Below are positions 33,630-62,249 of a stretch of 64,000 bases of DNA, piece by piece (position 1 is the stretch's first letter; the number at the start of each line of letters is the position of its first letter). The notes beneath the pieces are model-generated. The model had not been told where the DNA came from. It saw nothing but the letters and a program-made list of their open reading frames with translations, and did no database searches. Where the stretch lies: NCBI RefSeq assembly GCF_030066995.1, contig NZ_JASJAP010000002.1:1-64000 (forward strand), given 5' to 3'. A program made the translations under genes and the position numbers. Source of the DNA: Erythrobacter sp. (GTDB taxonomy: Bacteria > Pseudomonadota > Alphaproteobacteria > Sphingomonadales > Sphingomonadaceae).

Positions 33630-33718
33630 TGGCGCACTCCCCGGTCGGTCGGACCGCCAACAATCCAGCAAAAATCGGATTGCATTTCCCAAGTCGCCCT
33701 TGTTAGGCGCCGCGGGAT

Positions 33719-33736
33719 ATTTTCCAAGTGGAAAAT
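33719..33736. promoter_or_regulatory. Palindrome ATTTTCC-AAGT-GGAAAAT between serine hydrolase and RidA
   Basis: Perfect 7-bp arms with a 4-bp spacer, 18 bp before the RidA start and 90 bp before the divergent serine hydrolase. A similar left half, ATTTCCCAAGT, occurs about 35 bp to the left, near 33684. It belongs to a set with sites at 35513, 35799, 59730 and 62235. Confidence 0.6.
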
Positions 33737-33754
33737 AAGTTTCGGAGACACACG

Positions 33755-34099
33755 ATGATCAAGCGTATCGATGAAAACCCGCGGATGAGCCAGGCTGTGA
33801 TCCACGGCGGCCTCGTCTATCTGTCCGGCCAGATCGATCCATCAATGGCGCCGAGCGTGACCGGTCAAACGCGCGCGATCCTCACCCGCATCGACGATCT
33901 GCTCAAACAGGCCGGGTCGGGGAAAGACCGCCTGATCGGCGCGCAGATCTGGCTCACAGACATGCGGTGCTTCGATGAGATGAATGCCGTGTGGGACGAT
34001 TGGATCGGTGGCCAGAATGCCCCGGCCAGAGCAACGGTCGAAGCGCGTCTGGCGCATCCGGACTTGCTGGTCGAAATCGCAGTGACCGCAGCGCAGTGA
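33755..34099 (+). CDS. RidA family reactive intermediate/imine deaminase
   Basis: 114 aa from ATG 33755 (CGGAGA upstream). YjgF/YER057c/UK114 fold: an early S-Q-A-V-I-H-G-G-L-V-Y-L-S-G-Q stretch, A-R-A-T-V-E-A-R-L with the substrate-binding Arg, and a final V-E-I-A-V-T-A. RidA proteins hydrolyse enamine/imine intermediates released by PLP dehydratases and flavin amino-acid oxidases. The neighbouring D-serine-dehydratase-like enzyme and the DadA at 50 kb would produce such imines, which explains its position. It is the only plus-strand gene in this block. Confidence 0.9.
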   Translation: MIKRIDENPRMSQAVIHGGLVYLSGQIDPSMAPSVTGQTRAILTRIDDLLKQAGSGKDRLIGAQIWLTDMRCFDEMNAVWDDWIGGQNAPARATVEARLAHPDLLVEIAVTAAQ

Positions 34100-34118
34100 G
34101 GCCGATCGACAATTGGCG

Positions 34119-34162
34119 TGAGGGCCACCTGGCTCAGGAATGAGGGCCACTTGGCTCAGAAA
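34119..34162. repeat. Two tandem 22-bp direct repeats overlapping a stop codon
   Basis: Units 34119-34140 and 34141-34162 both read TGAGGGCCAC-Y-TGGCTCAG-R-AA, differing at two positions. The second unit contains the stop codon of the D-serine-dehydratase-like gene (34156-34158). The sequence resembles the multiple terminal repeats of IS21-type elements, but no transposase is present, so it may be a remnant or a slippage duplication. Confidence 0.5.
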
Positions 34163-35475
34163 TACGTGCGGATACCGCCGACGACGTTATAGTGCCGGTC
34201 CACCTCGAACAGCAGCGGCCAGCGATCGAAGGCGCCGCACGGATGGGAAACGCCAAATCCGACGAGATCGCCTAGCCGCAGGTCGGCCCCCTCGTCGATT
34301 TTCATGTAGCAGTGCTGATCGTCCAGCCGGTCCACAGCCCAGGCCTTCGGTGTCGCCTGCGGCCGTGTCATACCGGCGCGAAACTGCGCCACGGGCTGCG
34401 GAAGCCGGACATCAAAGGGCGCGTCCCGCTTGCCCAGTGTCAGGATCGCCAGGCCCGGTTCTGGCAGCGATTGCACCGCGGCCCACACTTCGAGTGCGGG
34501 CTGCAGCGTTCCATGCGGCAGAATGGGCCCAGACCGGCCAGCCATTTCGGCGAGCAGGTCGGTGTAGAACCCGCTGTCGTGGCTGATGTAGCACCCGGCC
34601 CGCAGCACCACTTCGAACCCCTTCGGGGCCGTGTCGCCCGCCAGTATCTTGGCGACGATATCGAAGAAGGCTGATCCCCCGGCGGTCAGCAAGGGCTTTC
34701 CGGGCGCGAACCATCCTTCGTCCTTCGCCACCGCGCCAACCTCGAGCATAAGTTCCATCAGCGATTCGACCTTGTCGACCGGAGCATCGGTGCGGCTGCC
34801 GCGAATGGCGCCCTCAAAACCCTCCACACCGCGCAGCGCCAGCCCGTCGGACGCCGCGACCGCTCGCGCGACGGCGAACGCCTCCTTTGCTGAACGCGCG
34901 CCCGTGCGCCCGCCAGCCAGCCCGCATTCGACAAGCAGCTGTAGCGGTCGGCCTATCGGATGCCGCCCCACCATCGATGCGAGCATCTCGACCCCTTCGA
35001 CCGAATCCACCAGCGCGTAGAAATCCAGCTCCGGTAGTGCGCGCAGGAGCGCGAACACTTCCGCAATATTGCGCTTGCCGACCAACTGGTTGGCGAGGAG
35101 AATGCGTTCGACCCCGAAGTGGGAATAGATGCGGACATGCGCCGGCGTCGCGGCGGTCATGCCCCAGGCGCCGTCGGCAAGCTGGCGTTCGAACAATTGA
35201 GGCGCCATGGTCGTTTTGCCATGAGGCGAAATCTTTGTGCCGGTCGCCTTGAGGAAGGCGCGCATCCAGCGCCGGTTGTGCTCGATCATGTCACGCTTGA
35301 GCACAGCGCATGGCAGCATCAGGTCGCCATCCAGCAGGCTCCAACCCTGCGCCCCCAGATCGGCAACGCGCACGCTCCCCGAGGTCGGCGCCCCAAGGAA
35401 GCGCCAATCGACTTCCTCGTTCAGCAAGCCGCTCAAGCCGGGATCTGAGTCAAGGTCCGGATCAATATCTGCCAT
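34156..35475 (-). CDS. D-serine dehydratase / D-threonine aldolase-like PLP enzyme (amino acid deaminase)
   Basis: 439 aa. Fold type III (alanine racemase N-domain) with the PLP lysine in ISPHGKTTMAPQL (about residue 95), followed by the DSD1 C-terminal domain in which S-H-P-C-G-A supplies the His and Cys zinc ligands. The family eliminates water from D-serine or D-threonine-type substrates, or cleaves beta-hydroxy D-amino acids. Length of about 430 is normal for the amino acid deaminase subgroup. No signal peptide; cytoplasmic. ATG follows GGGAGCG. RidA, encoded convergently next to it, would clear the imine product. A TTTTCC-type site lies 38 bp upstream. Confidence 0.87.
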   Translation of the reverse strand: MADIDPDLDSDPGLSGLLNEEVDWRFLGAPTSGSVRVADLGAQGWSLLDGDLMLPCAVLKRDMIEHNRRWMRAFLKATGTKISPHGKTTMAPQLFERQLADGAWGMTAATPAHVRIYSHFGVERILLANQLVGKRNIAEVFALLRALPELDFYALVDSVEGVEMLASMVGRHPIGRPLQLLVECGLAGGRTGARSAKEAFAVARAVAASDGLALRGVEGFEGAIRGSRTDAPVDKVESLMELMLEVGAVAKDEGWFAPGKPLLTAGGSAFFDIVAKILAGDTAPKGFEVVLRAGCYISHDSGFYTDLLAEMAGRSGPILPHGTLQPALEVWAAVQSLPEPGLAILTLGKRDAPFDVRLPQPVAQFRAGMTRPQATPKAWAVDRLDDQHCYMKIDEGADLRLGDLVGFGVSHPCGAFDRWPLLFEVDRHYNVVGGIRTYF

Positions 35476-35512: not shown

Positions 35513-35528
35513 TTTTCCGAAACGAAAA
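35513..35528. promoter_or_regulatory. TTTTCC-GAAA-CGAAAA operator-like site
   Basis: One mismatch from the TTTTCC-N4-GGAAAA palindrome, 38 bp upstream of the D-serine-dehydratase-like start. A further CGAAAT/CCGAAAAT pair follows at 35534-35549, which may be a second weak site. Confidence 0.5.
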
Positions 35529-35570: not shown

Positions 35571-35771
35571 TCAGCCAGAGAGGCTCTCTGGCATTTTCGG
35601 CGCTAACGCAAATCCGCGAAATTGGGGGTAGAGCTTGGCGCGCGCCGCAAGCGCCTCTTCGAAACGGTCAGCGATAACGACCCCGCCAAGTCGTCCCGAA
35701 GCCCCATGCGGCGTGCTGCGGGCGTGGAGCGTGTCCGGCGCGATCACGTTGATCGCGTAGCTAACCCTCAA
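35571..35771 (-). pseudogene. Unrecognised short reading frame, possible C-terminal gene remnant
   Basis: A frame ending at 35571-35573 encodes about 66 residues from a TTG at 35771, or 90 from further upstream where it would cross the palindrome at 35799. The deduced sequence (VIAPDTLHARS, GRLGGVVIADRFEEAL, LYPQFRGFAL) looks protein-like but matches no family I recognise and has no ribosome-binding site. A perfect 7-bp hairpin (CCAGAGA-GGC-TCTCTGG, 35575-35591) overlaps its end. It could be the tail of a decayed gene or a small unknown protein. Confidence 0.25.
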
Positions 35772-35798
35772 TGGTAGGCTGTGCCATCGCAGCCCCTT

Positions 35799-35814
35799 TT
35801 TTCCGAACGGAAAA
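35799..35814. promoter_or_regulatory. Perfect TTTTCC-GAAC-GGAAAA palindrome
   Basis: The best example of the palindrome set in this window, in the 474-bp region between the D-serine-dehydratase-like gene and the LigJ-like operon. The nearest gene starts are 136 bp (LigJ-like) and 324 bp away, so its target is unclear; it may serve the short remnant frame or mark a lost gene. Confidence 0.55.
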
Positions 35815-35949: not shown

Positions 35950-36969
35950 ATGATCGTCGATTGCCACGCCCATGTCAGCGCCCCGGCCAAGTTATGGGCT
36001 TACAAGGCAACGCTGCTTTCCCACCGCGGCGCGCACGGGCGCGGCCATCTCAAGATCAGCGACGATGAAATCCGCGCCGCGGCCAACACGCCTGAGACCT
36101 GGGAGCACGGCCATCTCGACTATCTCGATATCGTCGACACGACCATCCAGCTCTTGAGCCCGCGCCCGTTCCAGCTGATGCATTCCGAAAAGCCGGGCAA
36201 GCTGGTCCACTGGTTCGTCGAGGAATGCAACAATGTGATCCACCGGCAAATGGGTCTGTTCCCAGGCCGGTTTTTCGGCATTGCCGGTCTGCCGCAGGAA
36301 GCGGGCGAGCCGATCGAGGGCGTCCTGCCCGAGCTTGAGCGCTGCGTGAATGAGCTGGGCTTTCGCGGCTGTCTGCTCAATCCCGATCCGTTCGAGAACG
36401 GTCCGGGCGAAGCGCCGCCGTTGGGCGATCGTTACTGGTATCCGCTTTATGAGAAGCTGTGCGAGCTCGACGTGCCCGCGCATATCCATGCCACCTCGTC
36501 ACGCTCTCCGCGGGTCGACTATTCGACCCACCTTATCAATGAGGAAACGGTCGCAGTGCTCGGCCTGCTGCGCAGCCAGGTGTTCGACGATTTCCCGCAG
36601 CTCAAGATCGTGATGTCGCATGGCGGCGGCGCGATCCCTTACCAGCTCGGGCGGTGGGATGCACCGAGCGTCAAGCGCGGCGGCCCGCGCCTGAAGGACA
36701 AGCTAAAGCTGCTGTGGTTCGACACCGTGCTCTACACGCAGGACGCGCTTGAATTGCTGCTTCGGACGGTCGGCCCGGAACGCTGCCTGTTCGGCGCCGA
36801 GTGTCCAGGCGTGGGCTCGACCAAGAACCCCGATACGGGCCGGTATTTCGACGACCTGAAACCCGACATCGAAGCCATCGACTGGCTCAGCGACGCCGAG
36901 CGCGAGGCGATCTTCTGGGGCAATGCCAATAAGGTCTTCAATCTCGGACTGGAGAAAGCCGATGGCTGA
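35950..36969 (+). CDS. LigJ-like 4-oxalomesaconate hydratase (amidohydrolase superfamily)
   Basis: 339 aa, the LigJ length. The start MIVDCHAHV gives the HxH metal site; ELERCVNELGFRGCLLNPDP, YWYPLYEKLCELDVPAHIHA and VMSHGGGAIPYQLGR are close to LigJ of Sphingobium-type protocatechuate/gallate 4,5-cleavage pathways, and LFGAECPG and a YFDDLKP segment complete the match. The enzyme hydrates 4-oxalomesaconate to 4-carboxy-4-hydroxy-2-oxoadipate, the substrate of the RraA-fold aldolases encoded downstream. AAAGGAAG precedes the ATG. First gene of a five-gene operon with overlapping ends. An ACMSD-like decarboxylase is the alternative. Confidence 0.85.
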   Translation: MIVDCHAHVSAPAKLWAYKATLLSHRGAHGRGHLKISDDEIRAAANTPETWEHGHLDYLDIVDTTIQLLSPRPFQLMHSEKPGKLVHWFVEECNNVIHRQMGLFPGRFFGIAGLPQEAGEPIEGVLPELERCVNELGFRGCLLNPDPFENGPGEAPPLGDRYWYPLYEKLCELDVPAHIHATSSRSPRVDYSTHLINEETVAVLGLLRSQVFDDFPQLKIVMSHGGGAIPYQLGRWDAPSVKRGGPRLKDKLKLLWFDTVLYTQDALELLLRTVGPERCLFGAECPGVGSTKNPDTGRYFDDLKPDIEAIDWLSDAEREAIFWGNANKVFNLGLEKADG

Positions 36970-37975
36970 TATCGTTCTGGGCCTGTGGACCTCGCACGGC
37001 CCCACGCTTTCGACGACGCCGGAGCAATGGCTCGCCCGCCTGCCCGCCGATCACAAGAACAAGCGCCTGTTCTGGCGCGGCACGCCTTACGACTTCGAAG
37101 GCCTGACCGCCGAGCGCGCCGGAGATGGCCTCGACGCCGTCGTCACCATCGAAGAGCGCACGCGCCGCCACGCCGCGTGTCAGGTGATGATCGACAAGCT
37201 GGCTGAGGCCTGGGCCGATGCCGCGCCCGACGCCGTGGTGATCTTCGGCAACGATCAGAAAGAACTGTTCCTCGACAGCGTGATCCCGGCGCTCACCATC
37301 TACAACGGCGAGAGCTTTTATGGCGAGCCGCCCACGCCCGAGCAGGAAGCCAGGATGCCGCCGGGCATTGCGGAGGCGGAATGGGGCTGCAAGCCGCGCA
37401 CCCGCACCGAATACGCGGCCATGCCCGAGCTTGCCAACGCGGTGATCGCCGAACTGATGCAATCGGGCTTCGACCCGGCGGTCTCCTCGCGCCTGCCCGA
37501 CAATCCGGGCCACTGGTCAAGCGGCATTCCGCACGCCTTCGGTTTTATCATCGAACGGGTGATGCGCGATCATGTCCCGCCGATCCTGCCGATCATCTCC
37601 AACACCTTCTTCCCGCCCAATCAGCCCAGCGCCGCGCGCGCCTTTGCGATGGGGCAAGCGGTCGGCCGCGTGCTCAAGAGCTGGGGCGAAGGCAAACGGA
37701 TCGCCATCGTCGGCTCGGGCGGGATGAGCCATTTTGTCATCGACGAGGATTTCGATCGGCAATTCATGGACGCGTTCCAGCGGCGCGACGCGGAATTCCT
37801 CACCGGCATCGATGAGAGCATGTTCCAGTCGGGCACATCGGAGCTCAAGAACTGGATCGCCGCCGCAGGGGTGCTGTTCGAGACCGATCTTTCGGGCGAT
37901 ATCGTCGAATATCAGGGCTGTTATCGCTCGAATGCGGGGACGGGCACGGCCAACGGGGCGATCCTGTGGAGCTGA
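36962..37975 (+). CDS. LigB-type extradiol ring-cleavage dioxygenase
   Basis: 337 aa from ATG 36962, overlapping the LigJ-like gene by 8 bp. Type II (LigB superfamily) features: LWTSHGPTL near the N-terminus with the iron-ligand His, VVIFGNDQKE, PLLP-type central segment P-P-I-L-P-I-I-S-N-T-F, and AIVGSGGMSHFVIDED, where a conserved His and acid lie. It is longer than LigB (about 300 aa) and lacks the fused LigA-like domain of gallate dioxygenase DesB. Context with LigJ and CHA aldolase candidates suggests 4,5-cleavage of protocatechuate, gallate or a related catechol. No separate LigA subunit gene is present. Confidence 0.78.
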   Translation: MADIVLGLWTSHGPTLSTTPEQWLARLPADHKNKRLFWRGTPYDFEGLTAERAGDGLDAVVTIEERTRRHAACQVMIDKLAEAWADAAPDAVVIFGNDQKELFLDSVIPALTIYNGESFYGEPPTPEQEARMPPGIAEAEWGCKPRTRTEYAAMPELANAVIAELMQSGFDPAVSSRLPDNPGHWSSGIPHAFGFIIERVMRDHVPPILPIISNTFFPPNQPSAARAFAMGQAVGRVLKSWGEGKRIAIVGSGGMSHFVIDEDFDRQFMDAFQRRDAEFLTGIDESMFQSGTSELKNWIAAAGVLFETDLSGDIVEYQGCYRSNAGTGTANGAILWS

Positions 37976-38637
37976 GCGACATCCTCCGGCGGCTGAGCGG
38001 GCTCGATGCCTGCGCCGTGTCCGACGCGTGCGACAAGCTTGGCCTGTCGCCCGCGCAGAGCGGGTTAGCGCCACGCACCGGGACCGCGCGCCTGTCGGGC
38101 CGGGTGATGACCTTGCGACTGGCCGAAGGACCGCCGCCCGCCGATGCGCCGCCGGTGCATCTCGGTTCCAACGCGATCAACCGCGCGCAGCCGGGCGATA
38201 TCATCGTCGTCGAACAACGCAGCGGAGTCGATGCGGGCTGCTGGGGCGGGATCCTTTCGAACGGGGCGAAAACGCGCGGCATCGCCGGTGTCATCGCCGA
38301 TGGAGCGGTGCGCGATGTCGATGAGGCGGCCGCGCTCGACTTTCCGATCTTTGCGCGCGCCACCACCGCCCGCACCGCCCGAGGCCGCGTCCACGAAGCC
38401 GAAACCGGTGGGCCGGTGACGATCGGCGAGGCCACCGTCAACGCAGGCGATTTCGTGGTCGTCGACGGATCGGGCGCGGCGTTTATCCCGGCGGACCGGA
38501 TCGCAGACGTGCTGGTGGCCGCCAGCGAGATCGCCGCCCGCGAGGCCGAACTCACGCGTGCCGTGCGCAGCGGCGTTCCGATCGATCAGGTCATGGGCGG
38601 CAATTACGAACATATGCTGGAGGACACGCCATCATGA
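37966..38637 (+). CDS. RraA-fold protein 1 (HMG/CHA aldolase family, G-x20-R-D-x2-E type)
   Basis: 223 aa from GTG 37966, overlapping the dioxygenase by 10 bp. First of three tandem RraA-like proteins. The motif before GVIADGAVRDVDE has Gly at the position 21 residues before the Arg of R-D, where HMG/CHA aldolases have Asp, but E follows two residues after R-D. That pattern is the one associated with RraA-like proteins that can still bind a divalent metal and act as aldolases or oxaloacetate decarboxylases. Cytoplasmic. A role in splitting 4-carboxy-4-hydroxy-2-oxoadipate, or in decarboxylating the oxaloacetate formed, is plausible. Confidence 0.8.
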   Translation: MELSDILRRLSGLDACAVSDACDKLGLSPAQSGLAPRTGTARLSGRVMTLRLAEGPPPADAPPVHLGSNAINRAQPGDIIVVEQRSGVDAGCWGGILSNGAKTRGIAGVIADGAVRDVDEAAALDFPIFARATTARTARGRVHEAETGGPVTIGEATVNAGDFVVVDGSGAAFIPADRIADVLVAASEIAAREAELTRAVRSGVPIDQVMGGNYEHMLEDTPS

Positions 38638-39287
38638 GCGACACGCTGGTCGAACGGGCCGCCGCGATTGATACCGCGACCCTCTCCGATGCGCTCGACA
38701 AGCTGGGCATTGCCGGGCAATGCCTTGGCATCAAGCCGCTCGATCCGAAATTCCGCTTGGCCGGGCGCGCGTTCACGCTGCGCTATGTCCCGGTTGGTGG
38801 AGAGCCGGGCACGGTCGGTGACTATATCGATGACGTCGCGCCCGGTTCGGTCTGCGTGCTCGACAATGCGGGGCGCGAGGATGCGACCGTCTGGGGCGAT
38901 ATCCTGACTTTCGTCGCCAATAAGCGCGGGATTGCCGGAACGGTGATCGATGGCGCCTGCCGCGACACCGCGCTTGCCCGCGAGATCGGCTACCCGCTCT
39001 ATTCGCGCAGCTATTCGATGCGCACCGGCAAGGACCGGGTGCAGCTCGACGCGGCGCAAGTGCCGGTGATGATCGGGGGCGCCGAGATTGCTCCGGGCGA
39101 CATCCTGATTGGCGACACCGATGGCGTGATCGCGATCCCGCAAGCGCGCGAGGAAGAGGTTGTGACGCTTGCTGAAACCATCTTTGCCGCCGAAGAACGC
39201 ATCCGCGAGGCGGTCGCGGGCGGCAAGCGGCTCGATCAGGCGCGCAAGGACGAAGCGTATCACCTGCTGCAAAGGCGCGACGCGTGA
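38634..39287 (+). CDS. RraA-fold protein 2 (HMG/CHA aldolase, D-x20-R-D type)
   Basis: 217 aa, overlapping the previous gene by ATGA. It has the canonical metal/catalytic motif D-x20-R-D (W-G-D-I-L at the start, then GTVIDGACRD), so it is the best candidate for the class II pyruvate aldolase that splits 4-carboxy-4-hydroxy-2-oxoadipate to pyruvate and oxaloacetate (LigK/ProA activity). A long acidic helix (AREEEVVTLAETIFAAEERI) closes the protein, as in typical HMG/CHA aldolases. Length about 220 is normal. Confidence 0.85.
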   Translation: MSDTLVERAAAIDTATLSDALDKLGIAGQCLGIKPLDPKFRLAGRAFTLRYVPVGGEPGTVGDYIDDVAPGSVCVLDNAGREDATVWGDILTFVANKRGIAGTVIDGACRDTALAREIGYPLYSRSYSMRTGKDRVQLDAAQVPVMIGGAEIAPGDILIGDTDGVIAIPQAREEEVVTLAETIFAAEERIREAVAGGKRLDQARKDEAYHLLQRRDA

Positions 39288-39916
39288 GTTTGACCGATCA
39301 ACAGATTGCACGCGCGGCTGCGATATCGGCGGCGACGCTGCACGAGGCTGCGGGGCGCAAAGGCGCTTTGCCCTCCACGCTCAAGCCGGTAGCCCCGGAG
39401 ATGAAGCTGTGCGGGCGCGCCTTTCCCGCGCATGGGCCGGCGAAGGACAATCTCTGGCTCCACCGCGCGATCTACGCTGCGCAGCCCGGCGATGTGATCC
39501 TGTTCGATCCGCAAGGCGCACATGAAGCGGGCTATTGGGGCGAAGTCATGACCGAAGCGGCCAAGGCGCGCGGGCTTGCCGGCCTCGTCATCAATGGCGG
39601 GATCCGCGATGCCGCGCGGCTCGCCGAGATTGGCTGGCCGGTGTTCAGCGCCAATGTCTGTCTGGCGGGGACGGGCAAGGACCAACAGGGGCGCGGCAGT
39701 CTGGGCGATCCGCTGTTCTTCGGAGACGTGCTGGTGAAACGCGGCGATCTTGTGCTGGGCGATAGCGACGGGATCGTGGCGCTGCCTTCCGAGGGGATCG
39801 ATGCCGCGCTCAGCTCGAGCGAAGCGCGCGACGCGGCGGAAGTCGATCAGATCGCACGGCTGCGCGCAGGGGAGCGCACGCTCGACCTGTTCGGGCTCGG
39901 CGAACTGCCCTCCTGA
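39284..39916 (+). CDS. RraA-fold protein 3 (E-x20-R-D variant)
   Basis: 210 aa from GTG 39284, overlapping the previous gene as GTGA. Third tandem homologue. The position of the metal-binding Asp is Glu (G-E-V-M), and the usual VIDG is VINGGIRD, so a conserved Asp before the R-D motif is Asn. The N-terminus (A-I-S-A-A-T-L-H-E-A-A-G-R) matches the family. It may be an aldolase with another substrate or a non-catalytic partner. Last gene of the operon, convergent with the Rieske gene 16 bp later. Confidence 0.8.
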   Translation: MSLTDQQIARAAAISAATLHEAAGRKGALPSTLKPVAPEMKLCGRAFPAHGPAKDNLWLHRAIYAAQPGDVILFDPQGAHEAGYWGEVMTEAAKARGLAGLVINGGIRDAARLAEIGWPVFSANVCLAGTGKDQQGRGSLGDPLFFGDVLVKRGDLVLGDSDGIVALPSEGIDAALSSSEARDAAEVDQIARLRAGERTLDLFGLGELPS

Positions 39917-39932: not shown

Positions 39933-41258
39933 TCATTCCACGCCTGCGATAACCGGCTTGCCCGCCCGCTCGATCGGGCCAATGCCGGGCGACCATTCTT
40001 CGCGATAGGCGTTGTAGGCTTCGAGCCAGTCGGCGCCTTCGGGGCGCAGCATGTTGCCGGAGCGTATGGCGCTGAAGCGCTCGGGCGACAGGGCCGAGGC
40101 CCCTTTCGCACCATCATCCGCCAAAGCGCGCGCTTCGCGCAAAAGACGGCGGCGGCAGATCGCGATCATCCGGTCGCTCGATCCCAGATGCTCGCGCGTG
40201 CGATCCTGGATCGGCCCCATGCTCTCGGTGATCGCCTGATCCTGAAGCGGAATGCCATCGATGCCGGTGTAATTGGCTCGCGATCGGTCCATGCCGTAAT
40301 CGTTGGCGGCGTTCTGCTTGACCCGCCACCGGCCCAGCCAATCGCTGGTGTTGGGGAGGTAATCCCAGCCGATCGTCCCGCCCGGCATCGGCTTGCCATC
40401 GGCGTCGCGGGTCAGCGGTACGTCGCCATGCCTAAGCTCGATCAGCCAGACATGATGATCGTCCGCCGGAACCCAGGCGCGCAAATGCGCCGCGCCACTG
40501 TCAAGCTGGAACGGCGGCGTCATGGCATAGAATGGCAGGATGAACTGCCCGATCCGGTGGTAGGTCTCGGTCGGGCTGCCCTGACGATAGGCGTCGTAGA
40601 GCGCGCCGTAGTCGGTCTCGACGACCTCATAGCGCGGCGCGAGATCGAGCTGGCGGTAATAGTTGATCGAGCCCTTCGGAAAGGTGTCGGCCGGGATACC
40701 GCCCAGATGCAGAAAGCCGACATGGCAGGTGTCGATATCGCCTTCGAGCGCCTGTAGCCAATTGCACTCGCGCAAGGTGATGCTGGCGACGCATTCCTCC
40801 GCCGGGCGCTGATTGACGTCGAATTGCGGAAAGGGCGGCGGTGTTTCCTCGTCACCCAGATAGAGCCAGACGAGCCCACCGACTTCGTGGACGCGCGCTG
40901 CGGCGAGCTTCAGCCGCTTGGCAAAGGCGCGGCCATCGGGCTCGGATGGAATGTCGACGCATTGCCCGGTCACGTCATATTTCCAGCCGTGATAGACGCA
41001 GCGGATGCCCTCCTCTTCATTGCGCCCAAAAAAGAGCGAGGCGCAGCGATGCGCGCACAGATGATCGACGACGCCGACCGCGCCCGACTCGGTTCGGAAC
41101 GCCACCCAGCGCTCTCCGAGCACCTGCAGGCGGACCGGCGCGCCGCCCGCTTCGAGCTCGGACGACAGCATCGCCGGGAACCAGAACTGCCGCATATATG
41201 TGCCCATCGGTGTGCCGGGTCCGGTGCGGGTGAGCAGCTCATTGTCGATTGCATGCAT
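39933..41258 (-). CDS. Rieske non-heme iron aromatic oxygenase, large subunit
   Basis: 441 aa. N-terminal Rieske centre: C-A-H-R-C (CxH) and CVYHGW (CxxH), residues about 67-90. The catalytic domain has D-I-D-T-C-H-V-G-F-L-H-L, with the Asp bridge and iron-ligand histidines. Similar proteins are phthalate 4,5-dioxygenase-type oxygenases and aromatic O-demethylases such as those acting on lignin dimers. No ferredoxin or reductase gene is adjacent, so electron donors must come from elsewhere. It lies 41 bp after the AraD1 gene on the same strand and may be co-transcribed. It could supply the catechol for the LigB-like enzyme. Confidence 0.87.
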   Translation of the reverse strand: MHAIDNELLTRTGPGTPMGTYMRQFWFPAMLSSELEAGGAPVRLQVLGERWVAFRTESGAVGVVDHLCAHRCASLFFGRNEEEGIRCVYHGWKYDVTGQCVDIPSEPDGRAFAKRLKLAAARVHEVGGLVWLYLGDEETPPPFPQFDVNQRPAEECVASITLRECNWLQALEGDIDTCHVGFLHLGGIPADTFPKGSINYYRQLDLAPRYEVVETDYGALYDAYRQGSPTETYHRIGQFILPFYAMTPPFQLDSGAAHLRAWVPADDHHVWLIELRHGDVPLTRDADGKPMPGGTIGWDYLPNTSDWLGRWRVKQNAANDYGMDRSRANYTGIDGIPLQDQAITESMGPIQDRTREHLGSSDRMIAICRRRLLREARALADDGAKGASALSPERFSAIRSGNMLRPEGADWLEAYNAYREEWSPGIGPIERAGKPVIAGVE

Positions 41259-41299
41259 GGTTAAGTACCTCTCCCGTGTCTTTCAGTCGCTTTGGGCCC

Positions 41300-44888: not shown

Positions 44889-44920
44889 GCGCCCTCACCC
44901 TACCATCGCCCAAAATTAGG

Positions 44921-51206: not shown

Positions 51207-51215
51207 GCAACCGTC

Positions 51216-53848: not shown

Positions 53849-54459
53849 AGCGCGGCTGCCCTTCGCTCGATCTCCGCAACGACTGCAGGCGGCGGTCCTT
53901 CGAATGTGAGGCTCGCCTGATCGCCGATGAAACCGATCGCGCGCTGCCCGGCGCGCGTCGACACATAGCCTCCAGCCACAAGCTCGATCAGCCGCAGCAT
54001 GGCTTCATCACCCGACGCGGCAAGGCGCGGCAACTCGCTGGCCAGCGCAGTCTCGGATCGAGCTGAAAGGCGCTCGAGCAGGGGCAGGATCAAGTCTCGG
54101 TCAGCTTTCTGGTCGGGATAGGGCGCGCTCAGCCATTCTTCGAGAAAGGCAGGAACGCCCACTTCGGAAGGGCGGGGATGCTCTGCATCAGGCACCAGGA
54201 CGATATCAGCGATGGCACTTAGCTGTGAGCGCTGATCCTCGCTCAACGACAGCTGCCATGCTGGACGTACTGGGTTCACAAGCTGCGGATCGCGCCCATA
54301 TCCGGCGGGAAAGACTTCGGCTTCGACGATCTTGCCGCCCGCGCTTCGTAATCCAAGATAGGCCAGCATCGCGGCGGACCCGGCGAGCGCAACGCCCCCG
54401 GTCCCGTACCACATCGCTCGGCGACGGGTGACGCCGCGCTTGGTCTTATCCTCAGCCAT
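53845..54459 (-). CDS. Gluconate 2-dehydrogenase subunit 3-like protein with Tat signal
   Basis: 204 aa from ATG 54459 (GGAG 7 bp upstream); a longer frame upstream is the shadow of the Gfo/Idh gene. The N-terminus holds a twin-arginine signal (GVTRRRAMWYG, then a hydrophobic segment). The body (LSEDQRSQLSAIADIVLVPDAEHPRPSEVGVPAFLEEWL) is the subunit 3 family. This small subunit carries the GMC partner across the membrane via Tat and is needed for activity in glucoside 3-dehydrogenases. Overlaps the Gfo/Idh gene by 8 bp and DUF1080 by ATGA. Confidence 0.88.
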   Translation of the reverse strand: MAEDKTKRGVTRRRAMWYGTGGVALAGSAAMLAYLGLRSAGGKIVEAEVFPAGYGRDPQLVNPVRPAWQLSLSEDQRSQLSAIADIVLVPDAEHPRPSEVGVPAFLEEWLSAPYPDQKADRDLILPLLERLSARSETALASELPRLAASGDEAMLRLIELVAGGYVSTRAGQRAIGFIGDQASLTFEGPPPAVVAEIERRAAAL

Positions 54460-55597: not shown

Positions 55598-56658
55598 ACC
55601 GGGTTTCGCAGACCCAGCATGCGGCGATTGGCAGCGGCGTCGGTATCGCCTGCTGCAAAGTCGTCGAAAGCGTGCGGCGTTACGCGGATGATATGATCGC
55701 GCACGAATTGCGCCCCTTCACGCGCCCCGTCTTCGGGGTGCTTCAACGCGCATTCCCATTCGACGACAGCCCAGCCGTCGAAATCCATAGCGGTGAGCTT
55801 GGCAAAGATCGCCTTGAAATCGACCTGGCCGTCTCCCAGCGAGCGGAACCTTCCGGCGCGCTCCACCCACGGCGCATAGCCCGAATAGACACCTTGCCGG
55901 CCCGTCGGGCGGAACTCGGCATCTTTCACATGGAACATGCCGATCCGCTCGGCATAGACGTCGAGATGGTCGAGATAGTCGAGCTGCTGCAGCACGTAAT
56001 GCGACGGATCGAACAGCATCTTGCACCGCGAATGTCCATCGACCCGGTCGAGGAGCATCTCGAACGTGGTCCCGTCGAACAGGTCTTCGCCGGGGTGAAT
56101 CTCGAAACAGATATCGACCCCGCGCTCCTCGGCGTGATCGAAGAGAGGGCGCCAGCGCCGCGCCAATTCGTCGAACGCCTCCTCGATCAATCCCGCTGGT
56201 CGCTGTGGCCAGGGATAGAAATAGGGCCATGCAAGCGCACCCGAAAAAGCCGCCATCCGGTCGAGTCCGAGATTGGCCGACGCATCGAGCGCGATCTGCA
56301 CCTGTTCCACCGCCCATTGTTGCCGGGCGTCGGGATTGCCGCGCACATGCTCCGGCGCAAACCCGTCAAACATTGCGTCATAGGCCGGATGCACCGCAAC
56401 GAGCTGTCCCTGGATGTGGGCCGAAAGCTCGGTGACTGCGACCCCATTTGCCTTCGCCTGACCGAGCCATTCCTCGCAATAGGACTTCGACGTGGCTGCA
56501 GCCTCCAGATCGATCATCCGCGCATCGTTGCTCGGCACCTGCACGCCCAGATAGCCGCATTCGGCGGCCCACTTGGTGATCGCCTGCCAGCTGTCGAAGG
56601 GTGGCTCATCGCCAGCGAACTGAGCCAGGAACAGCGCAGGCCCCTTGATCGTCTTCAT
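55594..56658 (-). CDS. Sugar phosphate isomerase/epimerase-like TIM barrel protein
   Basis: 354 aa of the AP-endonuclease-2/xylose-isomerase-like TIM barrel. Metal-ligand motifs: ELSAHIQG near residue 77, ICFEIHPGEDLFDG (Glu), LFDPSHYVLQQLDY (Asp-x-x-His), FHVKDAEF (His-Asp) and VVEWECAL (Glu). Relatives sit in 3-keto-glycoside and inositol-like pathways as isomerases or lyases of keto sugars. Between the S9 peptidase and Gfo/Idh genes with ATGA overlaps on both sides. Confidence 0.87.
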   Translation of the reverse strand: MKTIKGPALFLAQFAGDEPPFDSWQAITKWAAECGYLGVQVPSNDARMIDLEAAATSKSYCEEWLGQAKANGVAVTELSAHIQGQLVAVHPAYDAMFDGFAPEHVRGNPDARQQWAVEQVQIALDASANLGLDRMAAFSGALAWPYFYPWPQRPAGLIEEAFDELARRWRPLFDHAEERGVDICFEIHPGEDLFDGTTFEMLLDRVDGHSRCKMLFDPSHYVLQQLDYLDHLDVYAERIGMFHVKDAEFRPTGRQGVYSGYAPWVERAGRFRSLGDGQVDFKAIFAKLTAMDFDGWAVVEWECALKHPEDGAREGAQFVRDHIIRVTPHAFDDFAAGDTDAAANRRMLGLRNPV

Positions 56659-58928
56659 TCCTCATCCCCCAGCCAGTGGCGGAAATATCTCGTTATCTTG
56701 GCAAAACCGTAATCCGCTCGATTGGTACCGCAACAGCTGACGCGATGATTGACCCCGGGCATAGTGAAAACGTCCAGGTCTTTGCCCTCAGCCACCATCC
56801 GGTCGATCAACTTCCACCACGGGCTGAACCCGGCATTGACCTCCAGCGGCCATGACATCGCCAGAACGCGACCCTCGATTTCGCTGACACGATCAAGATT
56901 GGACGCGGCGGCATATCCGTCGGGGTTGTCTTGCGGTAAGCCCATGAACGGCTCGATGTAGAACGGATGGTCGTCGAGATCCTGCGGCGCGGCCATCGCT
57001 ACGGCGACCTTGTAGAGCTCGGGCTCATCGATCAGCGCCCGCACCGCCATGTAACCACCCCAGCTGTTGCCGTAGATGCCCACGCGATCGAGGTCCATCC
57101 AGGGCCGCGTCGAAGCCGCCTCGCGCAGCCATTGAGCATGATCGGCGATGACGCCCTGCGGCCAGGTCCCGTATGTCGCATCCTGAAAGGCGCGGCCCCG
57201 TCCCGGAGTGCCCGGCGCATCTGTGAAGACGACTACGAAGCCTTGCTGTGCCAGAACCCGCGCAGTGTTGCCGTTGATCGCGCGCCCCATTCCGCCCGAG
57301 GCGTAATATTCGGTCGGCGCCGAACTGACCTGCATTCCGGCATAGATGACCTCGACCACCGGATAGCGTTTCGCAGGATCGAAACCGAAGGGCTTGAGGA
57401 TCACGCCCCTGATCTGGTGCGGACCATCGGCCTGGTCGATGACCAGTTCTTCCATCCCCGCATAGCCGAGCGCTGAAAGGCCACTCGCGTCCGTGCGAGA
57501 AACGGTGGCGGTGACCGAGCCGCCGCGGTCACGCGCCTCAATGACCGGAGGGGTGGCCAGGTCGGATCGCCGGGTCATGAAACCCGAACCGTCATCAGCA
57601 ATCCACGCCGAGTAAGTGCCGGTCTCCGGCGTGAGGACTTTCATGCCGCTTCCATCCAGCCGCGCCCGCGCAATCTGACGGTGATAAGGGTGCCCCGGAT
57701 CAGCGGAAACCGACAGCCAGACTTCACCGCGCGCTTCGTCGAGCTTGAGGATGCCTTGCACCAGTGCTGCGCCGTCGCTGATCCGATGGAGCTCAACCCC
57801 ATTATTGCCATCGATCAGGTAGAGTTGACGCGTGCCGCTGCATTCGTTCATCACTAGCAGATCGTCGCTAGCGGACAGTGGGGTTATGTTGGGCGGTCCC
57901 AGCGTCATTGGCGTGTCGAAATAGGTCGCGACCTCTTGCCGGTAGACCAGCCGGCTCTCGCCCGTCGCAGGATCGGCGGCGAATAGTCTAAGCCGCTTCT
58001 GGTCGCGCGAAACCTTCTGCCACCACACGATTGCGCCGTCATCGCCCCAACCGACCAGACTGACATAGTGGTCTTCGGTCTCGCCCGTATCTATCGGAGT
58101 GCGCACGCCGGTTTCGGCGTCGATCAGCCACAGTTCGAACCGTGCAATAGGTTCGCCTGCGCGCGGATAGGGCCATTCCAGGATCGTCGGGCCGCGGGTA
58201 AGCGGGCGATACAGCGGCTCGTGCGGGACATCGCGCTCATCGAGCTTGACCGCAGCAATCGTTTTGCCATCGGGCGACCATTTGACGTTGAAGCCCGGCG
58301 AGAACTCCTCGGCATTGCGCCAGCCATATCGCGGCGCGCCGTCATCCGTGAGACGTCGTACCTCGTCTCCCGTCCGGATCGCGAGGTCATTCTCGACGAG
58401 GGTCACAAAACGCGAGCCGTCGGGAGAAGCCACCTCGCTCAGCCTGCCGAATGTGGTAGGAAACTGATCGGACAGCACCTGCGGCTGCGTCAGTTGGAGC
58501 GCGCGGTCACGCTCCGGTGCGGGTGACAGGGTTCGGGCCGCTATGTCCCAACGGTAACTCTCTCCACCGACCTGAAGCCACACCGCATTGCGAGAAGCGT
58601 CCAAGCTCTGCACGCTTGGAGCGGCATCCAGCCCGGCTTTAGCGAGTGCCGCCGCCAGGTCCTGCCCCACGATCAGCGTTTCGACCCGTCCCGTGGCGGG
58701 CTCGACGAGCCAGACTGTGGGTTCATGCAACGGGTCGTTCATGAGCAAGAATTCGCCGCCATCGATCGCGACCGGCCTCGCCTGTGCGCCCACCAGGCCA
58801 GCTCTCTCCGCCGCGAGGATAGCCCTCGATTCCTCGATGGTCGTTGCAATCGGTTCGTCGAGCTGCGCCGACGCCGGCGCAGCGGCGAACGCCAGCAAAC
58901 CGAACGCCCAGATGATACTATGCCTCAC
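56655..58928 (-). CDS. Exported S9 family (DPP IV-like) peptidase lacking the usual catalytic Asp motif
   Basis: 757 aa from GTG 58928, overlapping the SDR stop as GTGA. Signal peptide (AFGLLAFAAAPASAQ), an N-terminal propeller with repeated D-G blades and a C-terminal alpha/beta hydrolase domain. Nucleophile elbow GIYGNSWGGYMA and His in MPGVNHRV are present. Where DPP IV has H-G-x-x-D-D-N-V, this protein reads M-S-W-P-L-E-V-N, so the catalytic Asp is replaced by Leu, with Glu next to it. It may be inactive, use the Glu, or have another specificity. Periplasmic. Its location inside a sugar operon is unusual. Confidence 0.87.
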   Translation of the reverse strand: MRHSIIWAFGLLAFAAAPASAQLDEPIATTIEESRAILAAERAGLVGAQARPVAIDGGEFLLMNDPLHEPTVWLVEPATGRVETLIVGQDLAAALAKAGLDAAPSVQSLDASRNAVWLQVGGESYRWDIAARTLSPAPERDRALQLTQPQVLSDQFPTTFGRLSEVASPDGSRFVTLVENDLAIRTGDEVRRLTDDGAPRYGWRNAEEFSPGFNVKWSPDGKTIAAVKLDERDVPHEPLYRPLTRGPTILEWPYPRAGEPIARFELWLIDAETGVRTPIDTGETEDHYVSLVGWGDDGAIVWWQKVSRDQKRLRLFAADPATGESRLVYRQEVATYFDTPMTLGPPNITPLSASDDLLVMNECSGTRQLYLIDGNNGVELHRISDGAALVQGILKLDEARGEVWLSVSADPGHPYHRQIARARLDGSGMKVLTPETGTYSAWIADDGSGFMTRRSDLATPPVIEARDRGGSVTATVSRTDASGLSALGYAGMEELVIDQADGPHQIRGVILKPFGFDPAKRYPVVEVIYAGMQVSSAPTEYYASGGMGRAINGNTARVLAQQGFVVVFTDAPGTPGRGRAFQDATYGTWPQGVIADHAQWLREAASTRPWMDLDRVGIYGNSWGGYMAVRALIDEPELYKVAVAMAAPQDLDDHPFYIEPFMGLPQDNPDGYAAASNLDRVSEIEGRVLAMSWPLEVNAGFSPWWKLIDRMVAEGKDLDVFTMPGVNHRVSCCGTNRADYGFAKITRYFRHWLGDEE

Positions 58929-59689
58929 TGATCCCACCCTGCGCGATTGAGCACGCCTGCGGCGAGAAACCCTCCGTCCACCGCAAGCACATGCCCTGTC
59001 ACATAGCTTGCGCCTTTACTCACGAGAAAAAGCGCAGCCTCAGCCACCTCCTCAGGCGTGCCGTAGCGGTCTGCAGGGATCGAGCGGCGATAATTCACTC
59101 GCGTCGCATCCGAATGCATGCGCTGGACCAGTTCGGTCTCAATCGCGCCCGGCGCGAGTGTGTTCACAGTGACCCCGCTCTCGGCCAGCTCAACCGCGAG
59201 CACTCGGGTTAGCATGATCACGCCGCCCTTGGCCGCGCCATAAGCCGCGCGCCCGGTGCCGCCGCGCTCGCCCGCAGTCGATGCCAGCGTGACGATCCGA
59301 CCATAGCCCGCCGTGGCCATGACCTGCCCGACCGCTCTCATCGTGTAGAACGTGCCCGACAGATCGACCTCTATCAGGCGATGCCACTCCTCATCGCTTG
59401 TTTCGAGGAACGAGCGCTCAAGGCCGATACCCGCGCTGTGAACGAGGATGTCGATCTTGCCATGGCCTGCAACCATACGTTCGACCATCGCATCGACGGC
59501 ACTCGAATTGGAGACATCGACCGCGATGCCGTCGCTCGCCCCCACCTCGCGCGCGGCGATTTCGACAGCGTCGCCGTCGAGATCGGCCAAGACAACCGTT
59601 GCGCCACTGGCAGCGAGCTGCGCCGCAATCGCTTTGCCAATGCCGCGCGCCCCTCCCGTTACCAACGCAACCTGTCCGGCAAACGTCAT
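58925..59689 (-). CDS. Short-chain dehydrogenase/reductase
   Basis: 254 aa classical SDR: ALVTGGARGIGKAIA (cofactor motif), LADLDGD, HSAGIG in place of NNAG, catalytic Ser in TLASTAG, Y-x-x-x-K in AAYGAAKGG and the closing VTGHVLAVDGG. The Asp after the second strand (L-A-D-L-D) favours NAD. First gene of the eight-gene operon, so its promoter region with TTTTCC-type sites controls the set. Likely an alcohol/keto sugar dehydrogenase; it could also serve as the 2-keto-3-deoxy-fuconate dehydrogenase missing from the fucose locus, though nothing proves this. Confidence 0.88.
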   Translation of the reverse strand: MTFAGQVALVTGGARGIGKAIAAQLAASGATVVLADLDGDAVEIAAREVGASDGIAVDVSNSSAVDAMVERMVAGHGKIDILVHSAGIGLERSFLETSDEEWHRLIEVDLSGTFYTMRAVGQVMATAGYGRIVTLASTAGERGGTGRAAYGAAKGGVIMLTRVLAVELAESGVTVNTLAPGAIETELVQRMHSDATRVNYRRSIPADRYGTPEEVAEAALFLVSKGASYVTGHVLAVDGGFLAAGVLNRAGWDQ

Positions 59690-59700: not shown

Positions 59701-59745
59701 CTTTCCGATTGGGGAATAATGGCGCATAGTTTTCCGAAAGGAAAG
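59701..59745. promoter_or_regulatory. Two TTTCC-N4-GGAA-type palindromes between SDR operon and kbl
   Basis: The right site is TTTTCC-GAAA-GGAAA (59730-59744), overlapping the kbl ribosome-binding site. The left site is TTTCC-GATT-GGGGAA (59702-59716), 13 bp upstream of the SDR start on the other strand. The pair, about 28 bp apart, could control both divergent transcripts. Confidence 0.55.
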
Positions 59746-59751
59746 GCGCGT

Positions 59752-60975
59752 ATGACGAAAACCGAAGCCCGCTCGAAGCACAGCTCGCACGCCGAGTTCA
59801 TCGACCGCATCCGGTACGAGCTATCAGGCATCGAAAGCGAGGGTTTGACCAAGCCTGAGCGCGTAATCTCCAGCCATCAGGGACCGGAGGTGATCGTCGA
59901 TGGAGAGGCGGCGCTCAACTTCTGCGCCAACAATTATCTCGGCCTCGCGGGCGATCCGCGCGTGGCTCAGGCCGCAATCGAGGCGATCGAAGAGCGCGGT
60001 AGTGGCTTGGCGTCCGTCAGGTTCATCTGTGGCACGCTTGACCTCCATAAGCGCCTTGAGCGCGCAACGGCGGACTGGCTTGGTTACGATGACGCGATCC
60101 TGTTCGCCGCCGCGTTCGACGCCAATGGCGGGGTGTTCGAACCGCTGCTGGGCGCGCAGGACGCAATCGTGTCCGACAGTCTCAATCACGCCTCGATCAT
60201 CGATGGCGTTAGACTATCGAAGGCAAAGCGCTATCGTTTCGCGAACGCCGATATGGTCGACCTCGAAGCGCAGTTGAAGGCGGCCCGTGAAGACGGCGCG
60301 CGTACCGTCCTGATCGCGACCGACGGCGTGTTTTCCATGGACGGGATAATCGCGCCACTGGATGAAATTGCGGCACTGGGCGAACGCTACGGGGCGCTGG
60401 TCATGGTCGATGATTGCCATGCGACTGGCCTGATCGGTCCGGGCGGGCGAGGCAGTGGCCCGTTCAAGGGCGTGGGGGACAAGATTGACATCCTCACCGG
60501 CACCTATGGCAAGGCTCTGGGCGGCGCGATGGGCGGGTTCATCTGCGCAGCACAGCCCGTGATCGATCTGCTGCGCCAACGAGCGCGGCCGTATCTGTTC
60601 TCCAACGCATTGGCCCCGGCGGTGTGTGGCAGCGCGCTGAAAGCTATCGAGATCGCCGCAAGCGACGAAGGCGACGCGCTGCGATCACAACTTGCCGAAA
60701 ACGCAGCCCATTTCCGCGGCGCGATGGATCGGGAAGGGTTCGAACTGCTCGGCGCCGATCATGCGATCGTGCCGGTCCTGCTCGGCGATGCCGCACAGGC
60801 GCAGCGCATGGCCGCACGCCTCGTTGAAAACGGCATCTTTGTGACGGGGTTTTCGTTTCCCGTTGTGCCTCGCGGTCAGGCCCGGATCAGGGTGCAGCTT
60901 TCGGCAGCCCACACGCCCGGCCAGATCGACCAGGCAGTTGCCGCCTTCGTCGAAGCGCGCGCGGCCCTTGCCTAG
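59752..60975 (+). CDS. kbl: Glycine C-acetyltransferase / 2-amino-3-ketobutyrate CoA ligase
   Basis: 407 aa from ATG 59752 (AGGAAAGG upstream; longer frame rejected). Alpha-oxoamine synthase family: ALNFCANNYLGLAGDPRV, GSGLASVRFICGT, VMVDDCHATG and the PLP lysine in LTGTYGKALGGAMGGF. Close to Kbl, which splits 2-amino-3-ketobutyrate with CoA to glycine and acetyl-CoA in threonine breakdown. No threonine dehydrogenase gene is adjacent; the divergent SDR might supply the ketone. Its stop shares the CTAG tetramer with the convergent Alr-like gene. Serine palmitoyl- or AONS-type activity is unlikely given the motifs. Confidence 0.9.
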   Translation: MTKTEARSKHSSHAEFIDRIRYELSGIESEGLTKPERVISSHQGPEVIVDGEAALNFCANNYLGLAGDPRVAQAAIEAIEERGSGLASVRFICGTLDLHKRLERATADWLGYDDAILFAAAFDANGGVFEPLLGAQDAIVSDSLNHASIIDGVRLSKAKRYRFANADMVDLEAQLKAAREDGARTVLIATDGVFSMDGIIAPLDEIAALGERYGALVMVDDCHATGLIGPGGRGSGPFKGVGDKIDILTGTYGKALGGAMGGFICAAQPVIDLLRQRARPYLFSNALAPAVCGSALKAIEIAASDEGDALRSQLAENAAHFRGAMDREGFELLGADHAIVPVLLGDAAQAQRMAARLVENGIFVTGFSFPVVPRGQARIRVQLSAAHTPGQIDQAVAAFVEARAALA

Positions 60976-62213
60976 GCCACGGCCACCGATGGCAAACGAT
61001 CCGCCAGAACATAGAGATACCAGGGATTGCCGAGAGCCTCGGCGGTTATCGAAGGATCGGCCCGGCCGGTCATGATCACTTCGTCGCCGATCTTGGCGAT
61101 CGGTTCGGGCCCGAGATCGACCAGAGTGTAGAGCCGCGGCCCGGTCATCAACAGCGGCCGCAAGTGCCCGTTAACCCAGACCTGCCGGTCGCTTGGCAAT
61201 CCTCCGGGCGATCCTGAAAGGACCGTCGCGACCCAAGTCCCGTTCGGCTGATCATGGCGCTTCTGGAAACCGACTGTGTCGCCGGGTGGCACCCAACTCA
61301 CTTGGGCAACACGGCATTTCACTTCGAAGGATTGCTCGATATCCACCCTTCCGCTGGCCCGCGCTTCGGCAGTCGGATAGCTGCCGGTGGGCAGAATGCC
61401 GAGCCGAACCGCGTCATAATAAGCCTGCGGATATTGGAACAGGCTGCGCGAACTCACCATGTGCCGTACCCCCGGGTCGATCCCCGCCGTTCGCATCGCC
61501 GCGAGCACGCCTTCGAAACGCTCGATCTGCTCCAATTCCGGCTGCCAGGCCTCGGTCTGAGGGCGATCGCCCGGCGGGGTGACGAAATAGCTCGCCGTGC
61601 CAGTGATCCGAACCGCTCCCGAAGCGGCCAACTCCTTCGCGCGTTCGCCCGCGATCCGCCATGGGATGCCCTGACGATTAATGCCGGTATCGACCTCCAG
61701 ATGCACGGAAATCGGGCGGCCCACCGCGCGCGCAATCTCGCTCACCGTTTCCGGTGTATCCTTGAGCGTCATCGCCAGATGCACACCCGCGCGCGCAAGC
61801 GCTATACTGTCGTTCTGGCTGGCCGGTGCCATCAGTAGGATGGGCTTGCGCAGACCCAGCTCGGCAAGCTCAAAGGCCTCGTGCGGGCGCACCACCATAT
61901 ATCCCTGCACACCGGGCATGGAATCATACATTCGCGCAACAGTTGCAGCGCCCAAGCCGTAACCATTGGCCTTAATCACCGGCATCAGCTTAGCGCCTTT
62001 CGACCGGCTTAAGATCGAGTTTGCGTTGCTCTCGAGCCGCGTGCGACTGACTTCGACCCACGGATCGAAACTCTTGCGCGGATCAGCATTGGCAAGCGCC
62101 CCGTCATTCGCCGCGAGGACGGAATCGGACGGCAAAAGAGGGACCGCCGCCGCACCAGCAATCCCGATCAACGCCTCGCGCCTTTTGATTTCAAGCGTGC
62201 GCCGCGACCCCAT
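60972..62213 (-). CDS. Tat-exported alanine racemase-like protein with Phe at the catalytic Tyr position
   Basis: 413 aa from ATG 62213 (GGAGTCGG upstream). The N-terminus KRREALIGIAGAAAVPL is a Tat-like signal. Fold type III Alr: PLP lysine in MPVIKANGYGLG, then HLEVDTGINRQG. In the C-terminal domain the Alr motif V-G/S-Y-G is V-G-F-Q here, so the second catalytic base Tyr is Phe, and the usual G-Y-x-D-G is degenerate (S-G-S-P-G-G). It may be a one-sided enzyme (for example decarboxylase, aldolase or transaminase-like) or a binding protein instead of a true racemase. Periplasmic location fits the exported PLP enzyme at 30505. Confidence 0.83.
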   Translation of the reverse strand: MGSRRTLEIKRREALIGIAGAAAVPLLPSDSVLAANDGALANADPRKSFDPWVEVSRTRLESNANSILSRSKGAKLMPVIKANGYGLGAATVARMYDSMPGVQGYMVVRPHEAFELAELGLRKPILLMAPASQNDSIALARAGVHLAMTLKDTPETVSEIARAVGRPISVHLEVDTGINRQGIPWRIAGERAKELAASGAVRITGTASYFVTPPGDRPQTEAWQPELEQIERFEGVLAAMRTAGIDPGVRHMVSSRSLFQYPQAYYDAVRLGILPTGSYPTAEARASGRVDIEQSFEVKCRVAQVSWVPPGDTVGFQKRHDQPNGTWVATVLSGSPGGLPSDRQVWVNGHLRPLLMTGPRLYTLVDLGPEPIAKIGDEVIMTGRADPSITAEALGNPWYLYVLADRLPSVAVA

Positions 62214-62234
62214 TTTTCCGACTCCGATCTTTAC

Positions 62235-62249
62235 TTTCCGATCCGAAAA
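62235..62249. promoter_or_regulatory. TTTCC-GATC-CGAAAA operator-like site
   Basis: One mismatch from TTTCC-N4-GGAAA, located 22 bp upstream of the Alr-like start and 39 bp before the divergent S9 peptidase start. A left half site, ATTTTTCC, lies at 62212-62219 next to the Alr start codon. Confidence 0.5.

Follow-up and report, generated by a model that had tools for sequence, protein, structure and literature searches.

An island-wide palindrome in Erythrobacter sp. as the predicted operator of an XRE-cupin repressor

Contig C5 (NZ_JASJAP010000002.1) of Erythrobacter sp. (GCF_030066995.1, 3,304,791 bases in 9 contigs) carries, in its opening 64 kb, hereafter the window, repeated copies of the palindrome TTTTCC-N4-GGAAAA upstream of genes. 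This dyad, in its extended form TATTTTCC-N4-GGAAAATA, is probably the operator of an XRE-cupin repressor encoded in the same island just beyond the window, which would block its own promoter and those of its neighbours until a ligand is present. What was an orphan motif can thereby be tested as a pair of regulator and operator, and the members of one catabolic regulon can be predicted. Among the papers listed in literature searches (titles and abstract openings, with subscription papers mostly outside the search) there was no account of the motif or of an XRE-cupin regulator linked to M81 and S12 hydrolases.

With up to two mismatches allowed, TTTTCC-N4-GGAAAA has seven matches in the window against 1.44 expected, a number reached in none of 100 shuffles. 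The six palindromes claimed in the initial annotation are all among the sites, each within one base of where it had been placed (35799, 35513 and 59730 exactly; 33720, 62234 and 59701 had been noted as 33719, 62235 and 59702), and they do lie in four intergenic regions of the part then listed, as 35513 and 35799 share one and 59701 and 59730 another. Two of the seven window matches had been passed over, 25370 and 20773, the latter with a low matrix score of 8.2. The series exceeds the range first given on both sides, starting at 25.4 kb and ending at C5:88.6 kb. There are only three perfect copies in the genome, all of them on C5 and within 55 kb (33720, 35799 and, outside the window, 88563). 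Of ten copies with at most one mismatch, six fall in C5:33.7-88.6 kb, about 1.7% of the genome, and the reversed pattern used as control gives seven genome-wide. When up to two mismatches are allowed, the genome count hardly stands out from background (91, with 74 in the control), and the short consensus is thus weak on its own.

The sites also have A/T flanks in common, and a 20-bp form with these included (pattern TATTTTCCRWWYGGAAAATA) matches the genome six times at three mismatches or fewer, on each occasion inside the island, against one match for the control. This form was derived from the same sites, so its weight rests on the absence of matches elsewhere in 3.3 Mb, and it does not pick up five weaker sites among the eleven. 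A 22-column matrix built from eight sites and scanned over C5:1-101,999 gave eleven positions at 19.3 or above, with the next best at 13.5, and it recovered 25370, 59701 and 70071 although these were not used in building it. When each site was left out in turn, ten of the eleven still scored above every non-site position, and 59730 was beaten by one. Four one-mismatch matches lie outside the island, three of which score 5.4-7.2 by the matrix. The fourth, C6:86818 (L009:1501-1516), scores 18.6 and could be a distant target, or a chance copy inside an open frame.

The eleven sites occupy nine intergenic regions in C5:25,370-88,578, which we call the 63-kb island, and all are upstream of genes; measured to the nearest start codon, which we chose among the in-frame codons, the distance is 6-50 bp at ten sites and 135 bp at one. 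It is very hard to believe, then, that the dyads are chance AT-rich sequence or a repeat family with no regulatory role. The near-background count of the short motif is what such an explanation would have in its favour, but the window shuffles, the genome counts, the matrix, the leave-one-out test, the 20-bp form and the upstream position of every site all speak against chance, and the spacers vary among the copies, which argues against recent duplication of a repeat. By these tests the regulon proposed in the initial annotation appears real, and the genome-wide counts do not show the similar density at unrelated promoters that would, according to that annotation, have refuted it.

No regulator gene had been seen adjacent to the palindromes, and an Lrp/AsnC-like or RpiR-like dimer had been suggested as the binder. 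A regulator gene is however found at C5:67746-68444, 3.7 kb past the window end, coding for 232 residues with a helix-turn-helix (HTH) domain at 36-97 and a Cupin_2 domain (PF07883) at 158-217, both above the Pfam cut-offs. The protein thus has the N-terminal XRE/Cro-CI HTH and the C-terminal cupin of the XRE-cupin family, and a palindromic operator near adjacent metabolic genes is predicted in silico; the dyad at 67633 lies in its own upstream region. With this gene so close, neither an Lrp/AsnC nor an RpiR protein is needed; no regulator of these families was found among 50 scanned proteins, a set that does not take in all open reading frames (ORFs) in the window or the wider genome. The dimer-type operator as such agrees well with the predicted sites. 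An AlphaFold2 model made from a 26-sequence alignment has helices followed by a beta-barrel (mean predicted local distance difference test score, pLDDT, 84.1), and its predicted template modelling score (pTM) of 0.52 makes the relative placement of the two domains unreliable. The closest folds in the PDB are HTH-cupin HppE enzymes, and an HTH regulator of V. cholerae (1y9q) comes at rank 15. The PuuR equivalog (NF007408) was considered as an identity and rejected, with 49.2 bits against a cut-off of 211. In its own genome the only full-length match of the regulator is itself; the other match, at E 7.6e-5, covers 59 residues over the HTH and belongs to a frame of 236 codons at C5:247502.

The sites and the genes around them, in C5 numbering, are as follows.

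24284-25345, minus strand: alpha/beta hydrolase
25370-25385: operator-like dyad TTTTCCGATCAGAAAC, 24 bp before the alpha/beta hydrolase start
31746-33692, minus strand: S12 (PF00144) serine hydrolase, with a likely true start at 33629
33720-33735: perfect predicted operator TTTTCCAAGTGGAAAA, between the S12 gene (minus) and the RidA gene (plus), 19 bp before the latter
33755-34099, plus strand: RidA-like protein (PF01042)
34156-35475, minus strand: D-serine-dehydratase-like protein (PF14031)
35513-35528: predicted operator TTTTCCGAAACGAAAA, one mismatch, 37 bp before the PF14031 gene
35799-35814: perfect predicted operator TTTTCCGAACGGAAAA, 135 bp before an Amidohydro_2/LigB/RraA-like run
35950-36969, plus strand: Amidohydro_2 protein, first gene of that run
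49938-59689, minus strand: run of SDR, DPPIV-like S9, TIM-barrel, MocA, small Tat-type (by eye), DUF1080-type, GMC and DadA-like genes
59701-59716: weaker predicted operator CTTTCCGATTGGGGAA, three mismatches, 11 bp before the SDR gene
59730-59745: predicted operator TTTTCCGAAAGGAAAG, one mismatch, 6 bp before kbl
59752-60975, plus strand: Kbl, glycine C-acetyltransferase, above the NCBIfam cut-off
60972-62213, minus strand: Alr-like protein with a twin-arginine-type N-terminus (by eye)
62234-62249: predicted operator CTTTCCGATCCGAAAA, two mismatches, 20 bp from the Alr-like gene (minus) and 38 bp from the S9 peptidase gene (plus)
62288-64000, continuing to C5:64408, plus strand: S9 prolyl-oligopeptidase family protein
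67633: site between a divergent MFS gene (18 bp) and the XRE-cupin gene (97 bp before its start codon)
70071: site in the region of an S12 gene with DUF3471 and of DUF819 and M81 genes, nearest start 14 bp
73872: site in the region of the M19 and SoxBDA genes, nearest start 50 bp
88563: perfect site, 17 bp before a KdgK-like/DctP/DctM/UxaC/UxuB-like run

The link between regulator and motif comes from other genomes. Five of 397 genomes of the family, its own included, match the regulator with an E value no higher than 1e-50, and the ten other sampled species of its own genus are not among them. Searched as a single sequence against a genome-contig collection it had no close relatives, and the relatives in plasmid records all have less than 60% identity (110 of 110 records), whereas two homologues on metagenome contigs (P0002, P0003) reach 66-70%. 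The best homologue in the family, at 55% identity, is in a genome of another genus (G379), where contig C15 also matches 15 of 47 other island queries (two unusable) at E 1e-12 or better. We count twelve of these as orthologue-like, namely Dsd (48%), GH2 (39%), S12b (33%), GMC (58%), DUF1080 (50%), the small protein (40%), DPPIV-like (43%), DUF819 (45%), M19 (55%), SoxB (62%), SoxA (48%) and M81 (40%), which form a partly syntenic cluster; the S12a, SDR and S9 matches were left out as paralogue-like.

The related island has its own dyad, GTTTC-N6-GAAAC, which shares the TTTC-N6-GAAA core with ours. It occurs exactly four times in G379, three of them within 19.1 kb on C15, at 45394 just before the regulator gene, at 47310 before DUF819 and at 64472. 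Copies with one mismatch stand at 50778 before SoxB, at 22950 between an SBP_bac_5 (peptide-binding) and an Amidohydro_3 gene, and at 9971, the last likely between an S12 and an MFS gene if the S12 start is later than that of the longest frame. The copies at 45394, 47310 and 50778 correspond in place to our sites 67633, 70071 and 73872. The perfect copy at C15:64472 (L140:18972-18987), GTTTCCTATAGGAAAC, has no recognised island promoter near it, and the identical 16 bases occur upstream of a homologue in another locus (L115).

More distant relatives were drawn from 580 homologues in named genomes, of which the best 80, at 37-48% identity, were used. Close to the regulator gene, in non-coding DNA that was masked crudely, TTTC-N6-GAAA occurs 11 times and TTTC-N7-GAAA nine times; the other eleven spacings between 0 and 12 sum to eight, and seven other four-base half-site words reach at most seven at any spacing. 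In the 450 bp upstream of 111 loci, the count is nine for N6 (30 shuffles gave 0.63 on average and 2 at most) and ten for N7 (1.23 on average, 4 at most), and compared with the remaining sequence of these loci N6 is enriched 7.4-fold and N7 12-fold. As far as these comparisons go, it is the half-site and its spacing, not the full sequence, that track the regulator, and they do so in a minority of the loci. The dyads of the related island together with TTTC-N6/7-GAAA near the distant homologues are what tie the regulator to the motif.

Several observations weigh against this assignment. Of the 80 distant loci, no more than 19 have the dyad near the homologue (N6 in 10, N7 in nine), near-identical Bradyrhizobium loci supply six of the ten upstream N7 hits, and other spacings are raised too: N1 with five hits (shuffle mean 0.87, largest 2; 9.7-fold over the rest) and N4 with four (0.63, largest 3; 7.3-fold). 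The exact 12-base motif occurs in one of the 80 loci and is not conserved, and a stricter A/T-flanked pattern at N6 or N7, an underpowered comparison, had three near hits and ten far. In G379 a first matrix scan and a palindrome search of C15 preceded the choice of the GTTTC form; the site upstream of the regulator was outside the top 12 of the matrix scan and came from the palindrome search, two one-mismatch copies on C15 (44707 and 72522) are not at recognised promoters, and genome-wide the one-mismatch count is only twice the control (61 against 31). In our island, the matrix scan found no site at the promoters of the TonB receptor and of the genes at 41-49 kb. Two further searches bear on the question. 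Among 29 loci of the family, with relatives at 39-50% identity, the motif was present at two mismatches or fewer in eight, against none of 29 for the reversed control, a result we set aside because at least four of the eight lie more than 1.2 kb from the regulator match; the words obtained in an unbiased search for 5- and 6-mer palindromes ahead of 109 loci were for the most part specific to single clades.

MarR proteins also bind palindromes, and a MarR gene is present inside the island (window 49435-49935). That the dyads serve this protein, or some other regulator such as a distant global one, nevertheless seems quite unlikely, as the matrix scan places no dyad next to the MarR gene, the 20-bp form is confined to the island, unlike a global regulon, and a dyad with the same core accompanies XRE-cupin homologues in other genera.

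We thus regard the dyads as predicted operators of the XRE-cupin protein. Following the model put forward for proteins of this family (PMC7901475), it would bind them as a dimer over the promoters and would, when bound, keep its own gene and the island off, by repression rather than activation; a breakdown product of a peptide or an amino acid may then enter the cupin pocket and cause the regulator to let go. Autoregulated, ligand-released local repression is the likely type of mechanism by analogy with DbuR and PsdR, which are, in the type of target, the nearest characterised analogues. XRE-cupin factors of Pseudomonas are described as local inhibitors that act through palindromes on adjacent metabolic genes (PMC7901475). 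DbuR of Pseudomonas putida, likewise an XRE-HTH and cupin regulator, adjoins genes for a D-amino-acid oxidase, a Rid protein and a transporter and represses the oxidase/Rid2 operon through a 20-bp palindrome over the promoter (PMC12724383). It differs in that it controls one operon, through the palindrome AATTCTCATATATTAGAATT, whereas we predict eleven sites over 63 kb with a TTTTCC-type half-site. PsdR of Pseudomonas aeruginosa is an XRE-cupin repressor of peptide use, with a dipeptidase and peptide transport as targets; its palindrome TTAAG-N5-CTTAA is similar in length to the island dyad but has a different half-site, and the original description gives it two neighbouring targets (PMC10965056). 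The Pseudomonas inhibitors share with our regulator the local repression of adjacent metabolic genes through palindromes, but 39 interactions are given there for a family of eight regulators (PMC7901475), against eleven predicted sites for one regulator here. The predicted island regulon is a new and unusually extended example of the local regulons of XRE-cupin proteins.

A single repressing switch may be too simple a model, since induction by D-amino acids is reported also without DbuR (PMC12724383), which counts against it. It is on the other hand unlikely that the XRE-cupin protein activates the island, or activates and represses it: a broader regulon including induced genes is reported for PsdR (PMC10965056), and the site at 35799 stands 135 bp before its gene, but the characterised P. 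aeruginosa factors are described as inhibitors (PMC7901475), and the short distance to the start codon at the ten other sites is a position that would block transcription.

The genes behind the sites had been read as all concerned with amino acids or peptides, and as a salvage system for peptides with D-amino acids. Genes of this type are indeed numerous (S12, S9, M19 and M81 hydrolases, PF14031, DadA-like, Alr-like), and together with RidA and Kbl they make a chemistry of peptides and D-amino acids plausible from their family matches, several of which are below curated cut-offs, as DadA-like with 374 bits (cut-off 383) and Alr-like with 143 (cut-off 168). The first statement is too strong, and the salvage system, plausible in itself, too narrow, since uronate, sugar and aromatic-type genes also follow the sites. 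The site at 88563 fronts a uronate operon (KDG-kinase-like, TRAP, UxaC and UxuB-like) in which UxaC is above its cut-off, the one at 35799 stands before the Amidohydro_2/LigB/RraA genes, and the run behind the SDR gene also contains GMC, 3-keto-disaccharide hydrolase, MocA and TIM-barrel genes. Uronate, 3-keto-sugar and aromatic-type genes suggest a conjugated substrate or several substrates.

Genes for SoxB, SoxD and SoxA follow each other in that order at L011:11999-16251 (C5 numbering is the L011 position plus 61,999, or the L012 position plus 81,999) and point to N-methyl amino acids. Compared with the subunits of tetrameric sarcosine oxidase, SoxB has 643.6 bits against an NCBIfam cut-off of 529.45, SoxD has 110.7 against 27 in Pfam and 109.8 against 116.5 in NCBIfam, and SoxA, whose listed ORF start is over-extended, is with 1112.5 bits just under the cut-off of 1164. 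No SoxG is recognisable after SoxA, where a 168-residue ORF has no family match, other places in the genome not being searched. The most likely substrate, we infer, is peptides that contain D-amino acids or N-methylated ones and perhaps carry sugars. The Alr-like protein has a match at E 1e-60 in one of the 397 family genomes, its own, and the island is thus at least partly lineage-specific.

In sphingomonads, mlr genes are those of microcystin degradation. Like the mlr cluster, the island combines S12 hydrolases with an M81 peptidase, but the 301 bits of this M81 protein against the MlrC model are far under the curated NCBIfam cut-off of 999 bits, and an identity as microcystinase MlrC was rejected. 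Such neighbours are found beyond this genome: among the 80 loci, 21 have an M81 relative, 28 an S12 relative and 44 any of S12, M81 and M19, and S12 is found in 23 of the 29 family loci (flanks of about 1.5 kb). M81 is uncommon elsewhere, with a class-wide baseline of 144 matches (our own sum) in 48 of 142 genomes, or about one per genome, so that by a rough estimate with a 3.5-Mb genome some 0.6% would be expected per 20-kb stretch; the S12 count comes without such a baseline. In genomes of Microvirga, Ensifer, Brucella, Mesorhizobium and Roseomonas type, M81 (microcystinase-type) genes lie about 1 kb or less from XRE-cupin homologues (loci L049, L050, L052, L056-L058, L062, L100 and L103).

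It is a tentative thought, and one we hold as rather doubtful, that an XRE-cupin clade with a TTTC-N6/7-GAAA code could provide widespread master switches for scavenging of peptides with D- and N-methyl-amino acids (M81, S12, M19, SoxBDA and D-amino-acid enzymes), and that here one switch would command a lineage-specific 63-kb island which dismantles a glycosylated peptide of non-ribosomal type, beginning in the periplasm and ending with glycine, acetyl-CoA and sugar acids. If the wider association is true, M81 (microcystinase-type) and S12 hydrolases of no known substrate beside such regulators would share one switch, and the inducing ligand would reveal what they digest.

Some smaller features of the island remain to be described. 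The dyad-free stretch at window 39933-49320 has Rieske/LigXa-like, double-cupin (gentisate-dioxygenase-like by eye), FAH-like hydrolase, FAD monooxygenase and MFS genes, and together with the adjoining dyad-free MarR gene it is likely a separately controlled aromatic pathway. A reading of the whole island as one for degradation of aromatics was dropped because the genes at 41-49 kb lack a site and have a MarR of their own. Between the dyads at 35513 and 35799 there is a possible minus-strand frame (35571-35780) of about 65-90 codons, with a non-ATG start and no Pfam match, and if it is real the dyad at 35799 would front that frame too. Behind the same site, at window 36923-39916, a LigB-like dioxygenase gene is followed by three consecutive RraA-like genes, an odd triple of one family.

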